Shown: piece after piece, positions 12,648 to 40,420 of the stretch
How positions within the stretch are numbered: position 1 is the stretch's first letter
Layout of the letters: each line of letters begins with the position of its first letter
Source: Halorubrum cibi
Lineage (GTDB): Archaea; Halobacteriota; Halobacteria; Halobacteriales; Haloferacaceae
Assembly: GCF_900182635.1 (NCBI RefSeq)
Contig: NZ_FXTD01000001.1
Span: forward strand, 434,001-498,000
Length of the DNA stretch: 64,000 nt
Direction of reading: 5' to 3'
Position numbers and translations under genes: made by a program
Notes under the pieces: generated by a model
Database searches by the model: none
What the model saw: only the letters and a program-made list of their open reading frames with translations
What the model was told of the DNA's origin: nothing

Positions 12648-13826
12648 ATGGTCGTCGTCACGACTCTCACGCTCCTCGTCGCCGGCGTCGCGAGCCTCTT
12701 CATGGCGTGGTCGATCGGAGCCGGCTCCTCCGGATCGACCCCGTTCGCCCCGGCCGTCGGGGCCAACGCCATCTCGGTGATGCGAGCCGGCCTCGTCGTC
12801 GGCGTCCTCGGCCTCTTCGGCGCGATCCTCCAAGGAGCGAACGTCACCGAGGCGGTCGGCACCGAGCTGATCGGCGGGGTCACGCTCACCGCCACCGCGG
12901 CCATCGTCGCGCTCGTCACCGCCGCGATCCTCGTCGCGATCGGCGTCTTCGCGGGATACCCGATCGCGACCGCGTTTACCGTCACCGGCGCGGTCGTCGG
13001 CGTGGGCCTCGCGATGGGCGGCGACCCCGCGTGGCCGAAGTACACCGAGATCCTCACGCTGTGGGTACTCACCCCGTTCGTCGGCGGCGGGATCGCCTAC
13101 GGCGTCGCCCGGACCCTGATCGGCGACCGCCTCCCGGAGCGCGCGCTCACGGCGGCGCTGGCCGGCGTCGTCGGCGCGATCGTCGCCAACGTCGGGTTCG
13201 CGCTGCTCGGTCCCGACGGCGAGCAGGCGTCGATCGCCGAGGCGGTCTCCGTCGAACTCGGCGTCCCCGGCGGAGTCGGCGTCCTCGCCGCCACGGTCGC
13301 GATGGCCGCGCTCGTCGCGGCCGCGGTGTACGTCGACATCGGCCGGGACCGCGAGGGCGCACAGCGCCGCTTCCTGCTCGTGATGGGGGGGCTCGTGGCG
13401 TTCTCCGCCGGCGGGTCACAGGTCGGTCTCGCGATCGGGCCGCTCGTGCCGATCTTCTCCGAGGTGGGCGTGCCGCTGTGGGCGCTGCTGGTCGGCGGCG
13501 GCGTCGGCCTGCTCGCAGGGTCGTGGACCGGCGCGCCGCGGATGATCAAGGCGATCTCACAGGACTACGCCTCGATGGGGCCGCGGCGGTCGATCTCGGC
13601 GCTCATCCCGTCGTTCGCCATCGCGCAGACCGCGGTCGCGTTCGGAATCCCCGTCTCGTTCAACGAGATCATCGTCTCGGCGATCGTCGGCGCGGGATAC
13701 GCCGCGGGCGACGCCGGCGTGAGCCGGTCGAAGATGGGGTACACCGTGCTCGCGTGGGTCGCGTCGCTCGCCGGGTCGCTGGCGCTCGGGTTCGGCGTCT
13801 ACTCGGTCGTCCGGTTGGCGTTGTGA
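12648..13826 (+). CDS. PiT-family transporter, divergent signature
   Basis: 392-residue polytopic membrane protein, paralogue of the transporter at 6.0 kb. The repeat signatures read GAGSSGSTPFAPAVGANAIS near residues 24-43 and FSAGGSQVGLAIGPLVPIF near residues 250-268, so the canonical GANDxAN residues are strongly altered in both halves. TM segments and the internal two-fold repeat are intact. Anion transport, most likely phosphate, is inferred from the family; the altered motifs leave the substrate open. It is preceded by the 42-residue membrane microprotein. Confidence 0.85.
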   Translation: MVVVTTLTLLVAGVASLFMAWSIGAGSSGSTPFAPAVGANAISVMRAGLVVGVLGLFGAILQGANVTEAVGTELIGGVTLTATAAIVALVTAAILVAIGVFAGYPIATAFTVTGAVVGVGLAMGGDPAWPKYTEILTLWVLTPFVGGGIAYGVARTLIGDRLPERALTAALAGVVGAIVANVGFALLGPDGEQASIAEAVSVELGVPGGVGVLAATVAMAALVAAAVYVDIGRDREGAQRRFLLVMGGLVAFSAGGSQVGLAIGPLVPIFSEVGVPLWALLVGGGVGLLAGSWTGAPRMIKAISQDYASMGPRRSISALIPSFAIAQTAVAFGIPVSFNEIIVSAIVGAGYAAGDAGVSRSKMGYTVLAWVASLAGSLALGFGVYSVVRLAL

Positions 13827-13875
13827 TCGGTGGGGCGGGGCCTCCGATCGGCCGTCCGAAGCGGAAGGCGTGACT

Positions 13876-14190
13876 GCGGCGAACACCGTCAAAGCCCCAG
13901 CCGCTCGGCTATACTTGGTTGCTGTCGCGGCGAACACCGCCAAATCCCCAGCCGCGAGGACTCGCGCGGCTCGTTGCGCTCCTCGCTCAGTCGCTATCGC
14001 TCCTTCGCTGCGGTGCTTACTTCGCCGTGCTTCGTCCTCACGACTGCCCCTTTGAGTCCCACCCGACCGCACAGCCCCGCACCTCACGCCTCCCCAGCCT
14101 CGTCGACCGACCTTCGCTCCGCTCCGGCCGGTCGACTCCCTCGCGCGGACTCCTCGCACCCTTCGGGCGCTCGGAGGCGCGCGCCACCGC
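13876..14190. repeat. dispersed structured repeat, copy A
   Basis: First of three related intergenic elements (others at 24736 and 40036). Conserved blocks: GCGGCGAACACCG/CCCCAG near the 5' end, occurring twice here (13876 and 13927); CGACTGCCCCTTTGAGTCCC at 14041; GCACCTCACGCCTCCCCAG at 14079; GGAGGCGCGC...CCACCGC at the end. A GAGGAC/GTCCTC pair closes the first structured region. The last hairpin (14150-14176) has CTCC/GGAG, a TC/TC internal loop and GCACCC/GGGCGC around loop TTC. It lies between convergent genes, 14 nt from the stop of the gene at 14204. Confidence 0.85.
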
Positions 14191-14203
14191 GTCTTGTTAC
14201 CTC

Positions 14204-15355
14204 TCAGTCGCTCGGGTAGGTCGGCAGTCTCCCGGAGCGGGCGCTCCCCTCGACGAACGGGAGGTCGGTCCGGTTCGCGCTCGCTTCGGTGCCGTCGACG
14301 CGCACGGTGACCGACTCCGCGGCCGCGTCGAAGTCGACGAGCGCGAAGGCGATGGGTTCCTCGAGGGCGGGGCCGACGGCCGCGCGGGTCACCTCGCCGA
14401 CCGCCGCGTCGCCCTCAAAGACGGCCGCGCCGGGGTCCGGGAGGCGCTCCGTGACGGCGTCGGGGTCCGCGTCGCCGTCGATCCCGGAGAGATCGTCGAT
14501 CAGGCCGTCGAGGGCGAGCCCGACGAGCCGCCGACTGGGTCGACCCTGGTTCTCGACGCGGGAGACCACCTCCTGGCCGACGTAACACCCCTTCTCGAAG
14601 TCGAGAGCGTTGCGGATCCCGAGGACGTTCGGGACCGTCCCCTCGAGTTCGTGTTCGAAGAGGGGCGTACCGGCCTCCAAGCTGAGTGCGTCCCACGTCC
14701 GGTAGCCGAACGGGGCGGCGTTGAGCCCGCGGCTGAGGAGCGTGTCGAACACGTCGGGCGCGTCGGCGGCCGCACAGACGACCTCGTATCCCTCCTCGCC
14801 GAGCGGCGCGTCGGTCGCGATCACCGTGACGCCGGCGTCGACCATCGATCCCCGCACGAACGACAGCGGCTCCTCGGGGGCGCCCGGGCCGCCGAGCACC
14901 GAGGCGACCTTCTCGGTCGATTTGGGTCCGTGAACGCCGAACACGCCGAGATCCGCCGAGACGTCCTCGATATCGACGTCCTGAATGAACACCTTTCCAG
15001 ACCAGTCCTCGAGGACGGGCTCGGCGCGCTCGGGAGGGACGAAGACGAGCAGTCGCTCGTCGGCGTTGTAGACGTACATGTCCGTCTCGATCCCGCCCTG
15101 CGGGTCACACAGCAGCGCGTAGACGCCGTGTCCGTCCTCGACGGGGACGCGGTTGCTGACGGCGTTGTCGACGAACTCCACGCGGTCCTCGCCCGTGACC
15201 GAGAGCACGCCGTACCCCATCTCGATCGCGCCGACGACGTTCCGGACGGCCTTCCCGACGCGGGCGGGCTTGCCGTAGTGGTCGACCACCTCTCTGCCGC
15301 CGCGGTCGCGATAGCGCGCGCCGTGATCCTCGTGGGCGTCGGAGACGAGCGTCAT
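14204..15355 (-). CDS. GcvT/YgfZ-family folate-binding protein
   Basis: 383-residue member of the aminomethyltransferase fold family. It has the YgfZ signature KGCYVGQEVVSR near residue 240, after ALDFEKG, and a C-terminal beta-barrel-like domain. YgfZ-type proteins use tetrahydrofolate and support Fe-S cluster enzymes; GcvT proper is the T protein of glycine cleavage. The KGCYxGQE cysteine favours the YgfZ group, but haloarchaeal members are often labelled aminomethyltransferase and the activity is not fixed. No glycine-cleavage genes are adjacent. Start MTLVSDAHEDHGARYRDRGG; upstream in-frame codons look non-coding. Confidence 0.85.
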   Translation of the reverse strand: MTLVSDAHEDHGARYRDRGGREVVDHYGKPARVGKAVRNVVGAIEMGYGVLSVTGEDRVEFVDNAVSNRVPVEDGHGVYALLCDPQGGIETDMYVYNADERLLVFVPPERAEPVLEDWSGKVFIQDVDIEDVSADLGVFGVHGPKSTEKVASVLGGPGAPEEPLSFVRGSMVDAGVTVIATDAPLGEEGYEVVCAAADAPDVFDTLLSRGLNAAPFGYRTWDALSLEAGTPLFEHELEGTVPNVLGIRNALDFEKGCYVGQEVVSRVENQGRPSRRLVGLALDGLIDDLSGIDGDADPDAVTERLPDPGAAVFEGDAAVGEVTRAAVGPALEEPIAFALVDFDAAAESVTVRVDGTEASANRTDLPFVEGSARSGRLPTYPSD

Positions 15356-15437
15356 GGCTCCCTCCAATCGCGGCACGGCCAAAAGGTCGCGGTTCGCGGG
15401 TGCGGAGCCGTCGGACTCGAGGATCGCTCCCGACGGC

Positions 15438-15737
15438 TTACAGGCCGAGCCGCCTTCTGAGGGTCTCGAGGAGTCCGCCGGCCGGCTCCTCGTCGCCCGG
15501 ATCGGGGTCCGGGACGACCCGGTCGTGTGGATAGACGCGGACGCGCTCACCGCTCTCGACGGTGATGAGGGAGTCCTCCTTCAGCGCGGAGAGCGCGTCC
15601 TCGACCGCGTCGATGTCGGCGTCGACGGCCGCCCGGAGCTCCAACACCGTCATCCCCTCGTCGCCGCGGTCGACCAACGCGTCGAGCAGCGCGACCTGGA
15701 CGTCCGGCCGGTCGCGGTACTCCGACTTTGCGGCCAT
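15438..15737 (-). CDS. small winged-helix-like protein (DUF6432-type)
   Basis: 99 residues. VQVALLDALVDRGDEGMTVLELRAAVDADIDAVEDALSALKEDSLITVESG reads as a helix-turn-helix with wing, suggesting DNA binding, followed by YPHDRVVPDPDPGDEEPAGG and an amphipathic C-terminal helix LLETLRRRLGL. It resembles a haloarchaeal family I know as DUF6432. It is co-oriented with the YgfZ-like gene (82 nt apart). The regulatory role is inference. Confidence 0.75.
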   Translation of the reverse strand: MAAKSEYRDRPDVQVALLDALVDRGDEGMTVLELRAAVDADIDAVEDALSALKEDSLITVESGERVRVYPHDRVVPDPDPGDEEPAGGLLETLRRRLGL

Positions 15738-24735: not shown

Positions 24736-25017
24736 TGCTTGTAGGACGGGTGTTTCGTAAGTGATCGAGGTGAGAAGAAGGGAACAGTTGCTGGGGCGGT
24801 GAACACCGCCAAAGCCCCAGTCGCGAGGCGCTTCGCGCCTCTGGCAGCCGGCGGCGGAGCCGCCGGCGACTGCCCCTTTGAGTCCCACCCCGCCCCGCAC
24901 AGCACCGCGACCGCACCTCACGCCTCTCCAGCCTCGCTGCTCGCGCTTTCCAAGCGCTCGCAGCGTCCCTCGCGTTCCGGTCGCGGGCCGGCGGCCCGCT
25001 CCCGGGCGCGCCACCGC
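24736..25017. repeat. dispersed structured repeat, copy B
   Basis: Shares a 5' block GGTGTTTCGTAAGTGATCGA and the following GGGAACAGTTGCTGGGGCGG with copy C. Then a perfect nested hairpin (CTGGGGC/GCCCCAG around GGCGGTG/CACCGCC), a GAGGCGC/GCGCCTC hairpin, a GCCGGCGGC/GCCGCCGGC hairpin, CGACTGCCCCTTTGAGTCCC at 24867, CACCTCACGCCTC, and two terminal hairpins at 24937-24963 and 24977-25005, each with a TC/TC internal loop. It ends GCGCGCCACCGC. It lies between hsp20 (3' side) and pcm (upstream side), both minus strand. Confidence 0.88.
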
Positions 25018-25118
25018 AGACGATCAGTCACTTCTTCGCCCTGTACTGAGCGATACACCGGATCGTTCGGCGGGGTCCGGACGCCGTTCCGTGCCACCCG
25101 CCGTTCGCGGACGGGTCG

Positions 25119-40035: not shown

Positions 40036-40420
40036 TGCTTGTGGTACGGGTGTTTCGTAAGTGATCGAGGTGAGAAGAAGGGAACAGTTGCTGGGGCGGT
40101 GAACTCGACTGGGAAGAATACCGCCAAAGCCCCAGTCGCGAGGACTCGTGCGACTCGCTGTGCTCCTCAGTCGCTCACTCCGTTCGCTCCTTTCGGTGCT
40201 TGCTTCGTCGGACTTCGCCCTCGCGACAGCGAGGCGCTCCGTGCCTCTGGCAGCCGGCGGATCCGCCGCCGGCGACTGCCCCTTTGAATCCCCCCTGAAC
40301 CGTACCACAACCGCACCTCACGCCTCCCCAGCCTCGCGGCTCGCGGTTTCACCGCTCGCCGCGTCCCTCGCGGACTCCTCGTGGCCGCGTCCACGCGGCC
40401 ACTCGGAGGCGCGCCACCGC
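40036..40420. repeat. dispersed structured repeat, copy C
   Basis: Longest copy. Its first about 65 nt match copy B nearly exactly (TGTTTCGTAAGTGATCGAGG, AACAGTTGCTGGGGCGGTG). A 16-nt insertion splits the first hairpin loop. A perfect GTCGCGAGG/CCTCGCGAC stem (from about 40133 and 40219) closes a region shared with copy A. Then GAGGCGC/GTGCCTC, a GCCGGCGG/CCGCCGGC hairpin, CGACTGCCCCTTTGAATCCC at 40273, CACCTCACGCCTCCCCAG, and two hairpins with TC/TC internal loops at 40337-40361 and 40375-40408. It lies between the metal operon and the thioesterase gene, both minus strand. Confidence 0.88.

Follow-up and report, generated by a model that had tools for sequence, protein, structure and literature searches.

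REP-like repeats have been described mainly in bacteria, where they come with a dedicated transposase, and roles at gene borders have been proposed for them. The family of intergenic hairpin repeats analysed here resembles the bacterial REP, BIME and REPIN elements in being high-copy, extragenic, palindromic and chromosomal, in occurring as single copies and inverted pairs, and in its patchy distribution among related species. In contrast to REP units of 20-40 bp, the haloarchaeal element is about 150-700 bp long and contains several hairpins. It also differs in its near-invariant 3x3 same-base internal loop, in the reshuffling of its hairpins between copies, and in the lack of a RAYT-type Y1 (RAYT/TnpA_REP) transposase in its own genome. 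In addition, neither GTAG nor CGTC, the REP tag at the hairpin foot (PMC3733652), was present in the A-block or B-block consensus. Since the element lacks the REP features that were tested (transposase, tag and size), we do not assign it to that family. Among the natures originally proposed for it, REP-like fits best, but without the defining features of transposase, tag and unit size. We consider it about evenly balanced whether this haloarchaeal chromosomal, intergenic, non-coding hairpin family works like the bacterial REP/BIME/REPIN elements.

The Class I and Class II intergenic repeats of halovirus HF2 (PMC8707807) are likewise haloarchaeal and intergenic, but they are AT-rich promoters of the virus, of 58 and 29 bp. 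No matching description was found in Rfam or in the open-access literature, subscription journals lying mostly outside the search, and the family is apparently undescribed so far. A near-invariant core across most genera of an archaeal class, in up to 186 copies and without the usual transposase in the studied genome, offers a natural experiment on what keeps a nucleic-acid shape without its sequence, and on archaeal gene conversion.

The window, the whole stretch of 64,000 nucleotides from Halorubrum cibi that was analysed, contains three copies, at 13876-14190 (copy A), 24736-25017 (copy B) and 40036-40420 (copy C), each of them confirmed. The original prediction of a dispersed, highly structured repeat that is neither a usual IS nor a usual MITE is supported, and its count of three in 64 kb holds and understates the abundance, these being the window's only copies among about 60 in the genome. 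Copy B used as a BLAST query matched 73 pieces in its own 3.18 Mb genome, and the 18-nt core CGACTGCCCCTTTGAGTC was found there at 62 places with at most 3 mismatches, compared with 3 places for the reversed control. The first ~65 nt are common to copies B and C, as noted before. The statement that transposase and terminal inverted repeat are missing holds for single copies; in other families the hairpins are found singly or in inverted pairs arranged tail to tail, whose outer ends are GAACAGCCAGAAAGCCCC and whose spacer is ~25 nt. The false ORFs attributed to the repeat were also seen, the frames at 13830-14219 and 13919-15460 running through copy A. The element should be masked in annotation because such spurious ORFs arise from it.

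Copy B belongs to the long class. On the plus strand, its 5' region (24737-24797) contains the TATA-like TGCTTGTAG, followed by ACGGGTGTTTCGTAAGTGATCGAGGTGAGAAGAAGGGAACAGTTGCTGGGGC. The A-block GGTGAACACCGCCAAAGCCCC (24798-24818) supplies the 5' strand of the P0 stem, CAAAG (24810-24814), and an internal-loop C tract (24815-24817). The hypervariable hairpin 1 (24819-24871) has a compact form, in which a two-hairpin module stands in place of the large hairpin; an AGTCGC/GCGACT stem surrounds the module, which reads GAGGCGC-TTC-GCGCCTC, TGGCAG and CCGGCGGC-GGA-GCCGCCGG, in this order. The B-block GCCCCTTTGAGTCCCACCC (24872-24890) carries the opposite loop C tract, the P0 3' strand CTTTG (24876-24880) and then CCCnCCC. 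These are followed, also on the plus strand, by the C-block GCACCTCACGCCTCTCCAGCCTCG (24913-24936), hairpin 2 (24936-24964; GCTGC-TC-GCGCTT-TCC-AAGCGC-TC-GCAGC, with a TC/TC internal loop that is GA/GA on the other strand), the CCCTCGCG link with hairpin 3 (24967-25005; CCGG-TC-GCGGGCC-GGC-GGCCCGC-TC-CCGG) and the D-block GGCGCGCCACCGC (25005-25017). Copy B reaches beyond 25017, to about 25049, with the 3' tail GATCAGTCACTTCTTCGCCCTGTACTGA (25022-25049), which is common to other long copies as GATCGCTCGTTGCTTCGTCTGTACTGA.

Copy A, also on the plus strand, is of the short class, without the TATA-like 5' part. It has tandem A-blocks at 13889 and 13940, a large hairpin 1 extending to 14040, a B-block from 14041, a C-block from 14079, hairpins 2 and 3, and a D-block ending at 14190. 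For copy C, a plus-strand copy of the long class, the 5' part (40036-40100) is followed by an A-block near 40124, a large hairpin 1 with an inserted two-hairpin module, a B-block from 40273, a C-block from 40313, hairpins 2 and 3, and a D-block ending at 40420. Copy C and the copy at C4:192.7 kb are near-identical over two long stretches.

In general, a full Halorubrum copy consists, in this order on the plus strand, of an optional 5' region with the TATA-like GCTTATAG and ACGGGTGTTTCG, the A-block GGTGAACACCnCCAAAGCCCC, hairpin 1 (median length ~95 nt), the B-block, the C-block GCACCTCACGCCTCCCCAGCCTCG, hairpin 2, the link, hairpin 3, the D-block and, in long copies, the tail. The 5' part of the long class is present in 30/59 copies of the own genome, i.e., about half, and the A-blocks are sometimes tandem, 51 or 57 nt apart. 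The B-block is near-invariant across 253 copies, and its class-wide form is GCCCCTTTSAGTCCCACC. The sequence GGTGGGACTGAAAG resembles haloarchaeal CRISPR repeat ends; this likeness was set aside, as in Halorubrum that base is altered along with the one it pairs with.

The core hairpin comprises an SAAAG/CTTTS stem, the near-invariant internal loop of three same bases on each side (CCC/CCC; GGG/GGG when read on the opposite strand), and then a hypervariable stem. In the P0 stem, CAAAG pairs with CTTTG in Halorubrum, whereas other genera have the compensatory combination of GAAAG and CTTTC. Among 50 distinct stems, drawn from three groups, 96.3% of the cells pair. In this set, the A-block partner was picked by complementarity where several were available, and only stems with at least 9 of 12 compatible pairs were included, which favours pairing somewhat. 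The covariation check that had been proposed gave, for the same stems, a value of 0.722, far above both controls (shuffles, 0.168 +/- 0.014; slid structures, 0.07-0.12), and both sides were changed at 12 of the 13 P1 stem pairs. In agreement with this filtered result, the Watson-Crick complementarity of the unfiltered 253 copies decreased from 0.84-0.93 to 0.50-0.67 once the arms were re-paired between copies.

The loop, by comparison with the stem, hardly varies. Both loop C tracts and CCCnCCC are kept together in 238/253 copies, and across the 50 rows the G positions that face each other in the loop vary little or not at all. Halorubrum copies carry the two further hairpins, 2 and 3, with a fixed TC/TC (GA/GA) internal loop: TC/TC accounts for 92 of the 104 2x2 internal loops in these hairpins of the own copies, giving a tandem G.A/A.G mismatch on the other strand. 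GNA triloops, counted on either strand, make up 79/107, compared with 13/171 in the window background. As a rule, tandem G.A pairs are unusually stable, and so are GNA triloops. The variation of the inter-block hairpins among copies, rightly noted before, is the key property of the family, and the folded shape, rather than the stem sequence, appears to be what persists.

The G-rich (minus) strand had the lower folding energy in 54/54 copies. Folding energy was nevertheless dropped as proof of the functional strand, since dinucleotide shuffles of copy B gave the same strand difference; relative to these shuffles, the z-score of copy B was -2.74 for the plus strand and -1.12 for the minus strand. 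The energy gap between the strands is largely compositional and thus settles no functional strand. The wobble states of 167 distinct stems favoured the minus strand (123 vs 31), but mainly at three stem positions, so that the p-value overstates this asymmetry. The tandem G.A loops favour the same strand. The minus strand is the more likely functional one.

With respect to neighbouring genes, none of 101 Halorubrum copies and none in a sample from other genera lay within a gene, in accordance with the intergenic location originally described. The Halorubrum copies were enriched between convergent genes (46/108, compared with 116/586 other adjacent pairs; OR 3.0, p = 1.5e-6), the single gene calls being liable to error because a codon-usage script trained within the analysis made them. 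Copy A itself sits between the convergent genes at 12648-13826 (+) and 14204-15355 (-). The Halorubrum copies showed no strand preference relative to genes; in other genera, single copies favoured one orientation, with 30 tandem minus-minus cases vs 8 (p = 0.0005, two samples pooled). The replication role once suggested is not borne out by position: in G168, a genome of one contig that carries 186 copies, those on the forward strand are distributed uniformly (Kolmogorov-Smirnov p = 0.66).

A doubtful alternative is that long-class copies are transcription units, in which the TATA-like sequence would lie 5' of a structured RNA of several hundred nt, followed in some copies by a T-run 3' module, the short copies being UTR elements of adjoining genes. 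In favour of this, half of the copies in the own genome share a conserved TATA-like 5' region, the covariation is strong, some 3' extensions contain the T-run module GGCTTTTTCCCTCCAGGTTTTTCG, and in other genera one element strand is predominantly co-oriented with its neighbours (tandem 30 vs 8); T stretches end transcription in Haloferax (PMC7237163). However, the promoter-like part is missing from the other half of the own copies, and the putative promoter would drive the C-rich strand, whereas the tandem G.A loops and the wobble alleles (123 vs 31, mainly at three positions) favour the other. The copy number, moreover, ranges from 0 or 1 to more than 100 among related species. Membership in a known structured RNA family, one form of the original RNA proposal, is unsupported: searches of Rfam 15, at the gathering thresholds and at E <= 1, yielded nothing credible over the element, and hence no Rfam relative.

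When the conserved blocks were searched across haloarchaeal genomes, as had been suggested, the general motif was found in 275/391 Halobacteria genomes and 65/86 genera, with 1 hit for the reversed-pattern control. The family is class-wide and not confined to this genome. In the family-level search, 94/170 genomes contained the motif, nearly all Halorubrum genomes were positive, and the maximum was 186 copies. For the exact 24-nt motif, every record among the matches listed was Halorubrum, Hrr. saccharovorum being one of the carriers. The copy number is uneven among related species, from 0 to 56 in one genus (label g58) and from 1 to 108 in another (g76). The exact motif was absent from the viral contigs searched, and copy B as a query found nothing in the phage collection. 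Plasmid copies were rare, being found on one Halorubrum plasmid and a few other haloarchaeal megaplasmids, in a collection with at least nine Halorubrum plasmid records, the six listed amounting to about 1.8 Mb.

These distributions bear on the possibility, quite unlikely in our estimate, that the element is a non-autonomous transposon (a MITE or an IS200/IS605-derived PATE) mobilised by a host transposase. Like MITEs and archaeal PATEs, it is non-coding, dispersed and hairpin-rich, and it has amplified in particular lineages; the inverted pairs of other families have matching outer ends. One site was gained: at site B, five sister species carry the element, namely that of the own genome and four relatives whose flanks are 89-90% identical, and the core motif was not seen at the 25 other Halorubrum loci fetched. 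Unlike MITEs and PATEs, single copies have no terminal inverted repeat, and the sole filled/empty comparison gave no clear target duplication, although the whole intergenic region differs there. Most of the sites examined in two related species were common to both. The element is nearly absent from Halorubrum plasmids, a usual place for transposons to concentrate, and was not found in the virus and phage collections. No Y1 transposase (PF01797) able to mobilise it as a PATE was found in the own genome, although control genomes responded to the same search, and no reverse transcriptase (PF00078), as a retron-like element would have, was found there either. Both enzymes were accordingly rejected as movers.

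To return to the family as REP-like, the comparison of the own genome with a related one (G019) covered 18 orthologous sites in detail, with flank segments 80-100% identical (median about 94%). The identity of the orthologous hairpins averaged 0.64, 0.66 and 0.61, compared with 0.86, 0.93 and 0.92 for the best non-allelic copy of the own genome, a best-of-many choice that favours the non-allelic side somewhat and leaves the gap large. In 17/18, 14/15 and 14/15 cases (45 of 48 comparisons), the ortholog was less similar than the non-allelic copy. Orthologous sites mostly agreed in being of the long or the short class, and near-identical own copies changed suddenly at the hairpin borders. In addition, between 4 and 6 of the 253 copies had an inverted hairpin 1 loop. 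These results indicate that hairpins swap between loci far faster than the flanking genes diverge.

Hairpin replacement and the rare inverted loops can be explained by non-allelic exchange together with template switching between the arms. Arm homogenisation and spacer inversion arise by template switching between inverted repeats (PMC8604942), and the element shares both with quasipalindrome template-switch hotspots (PMC8604942, PMC7202029). It differs from the hotspots in that mismatched loops are fixed in place and that the donors include non-allelic copies. Template switching would erase mismatches, so the retention of the GGG/GGG and GA/GA loops suggests selection.

The same exchange enters into a distinctly improbable alternative, based on the predicted structure, that the element is a hairpin-quadruplex recombination site. 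In this case, the GGG/GGG loop and the adjacent GGGNGGG tail would form a three-tetrad quadruplex in the potassium-rich cytoplasm, and folding within or between copies would start the hairpin exchange. The four G tracts (GGGNGGG, GGG, GGG), whose spacer letter varies, persist together in 238/253 copies; the G positions facing each other in the loop hardly change, and the non-allelic exchange is real. Duplexes that contain contiguous guanines associate via quadruplexes when potassium is present (PMC3655031). In such synapsable DNA, as in the element, G tracts face G tracts inside a duplex; the element differs in being natural, with only three mismatches and a putative quadruplex. However, the quadruplex is deduced from structure, the C tracts could equally well be a protein site, and the P0 stem has to coexist with the quadruplex. 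The broader form, in which a class-wide, potassium-stabilised element would pair its own copies and drive continuous exchange of hairpin cassettes, is just as improbable; if true, archaea would have a system whose evolution is at once concerted and diversifying.

If the element instead works like a REP, its arms would diversify via non-allelic gene conversion and template switching between hairpin arms, and selection would keep the mismatched loops and the flanking blocks, presumably because the folded single strand is recognised. New sites would arise seldom, lineage by lineage. The sites are stable over short divergence, and replacement hairpins match versions elsewhere in the same genome. 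Considering the gene-border positions, a structural or protein-binding site acting on the transcription boundary, mRNA end or supercoil is a likely candidate role. Conversely, no protein partner was found and the own genome has no Y1 transposase; quasipalindrome correction alone, without selection, could yield the arm complementarity, and only the kept mismatches oppose this. The clade-dependent orientation to genes also fits one simple function poorly.

Several minor observations were also made. The three closest copy pairs (L073, L079 and L039/L077), 844-977 bp apart, each bracket one gene, with both A sides toward the gene. By eye, these genes are presumably QueD-like, Tsr3-like and a conserved haloarchaeal protein; they appear ordinary and were dropped as an autonomous partner. 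A tRNA gene adjoins one copy (L061:94-164). Inverted hairpin 1 loops were seen in L078 (C2:324494), L094, L159 and L192. In one copy of the related genome G019 (L260), the whole core hairpin was lost via a deletion between C tracts, AAAGCCCCA^CCCCGC. Some long copies (L055, L058, L066 and L071) have a longer 3' extension past the D-block, GAGCATCCGCGAGCGAAGCGAGCGGTTCACCGACGGAGCC..GGCTTTTTCCCTCCAGGTTTTTCG..AAAAAGGTGG, with T runs, flanked by CTGTACTGA-like sequence.

The two-hairpin module of ~50 nt is inserted at different blocks in several copies. It reads AGCGAGGCGC-loop-GCGCCTCTGGCAGCCGGC-loop-GCCGGCGAC, with variants, and occupies several fixed positions within the repeats, in one orientation or the other (L033, L045, L064, L070 and L085; also at 24825-24866 and inside 40230-40272 of the window). 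Possibly, this module is a small element of its own. In or beside hairpin 1 of unrelated families, a second module of two hairpins was observed, CGAGAGAGCGAAGCTCTCTCG-TCATCA-CGAAAGGCGC..GCGCCTTTCGAACGAC (L301, L213 and L217, all from other genera).
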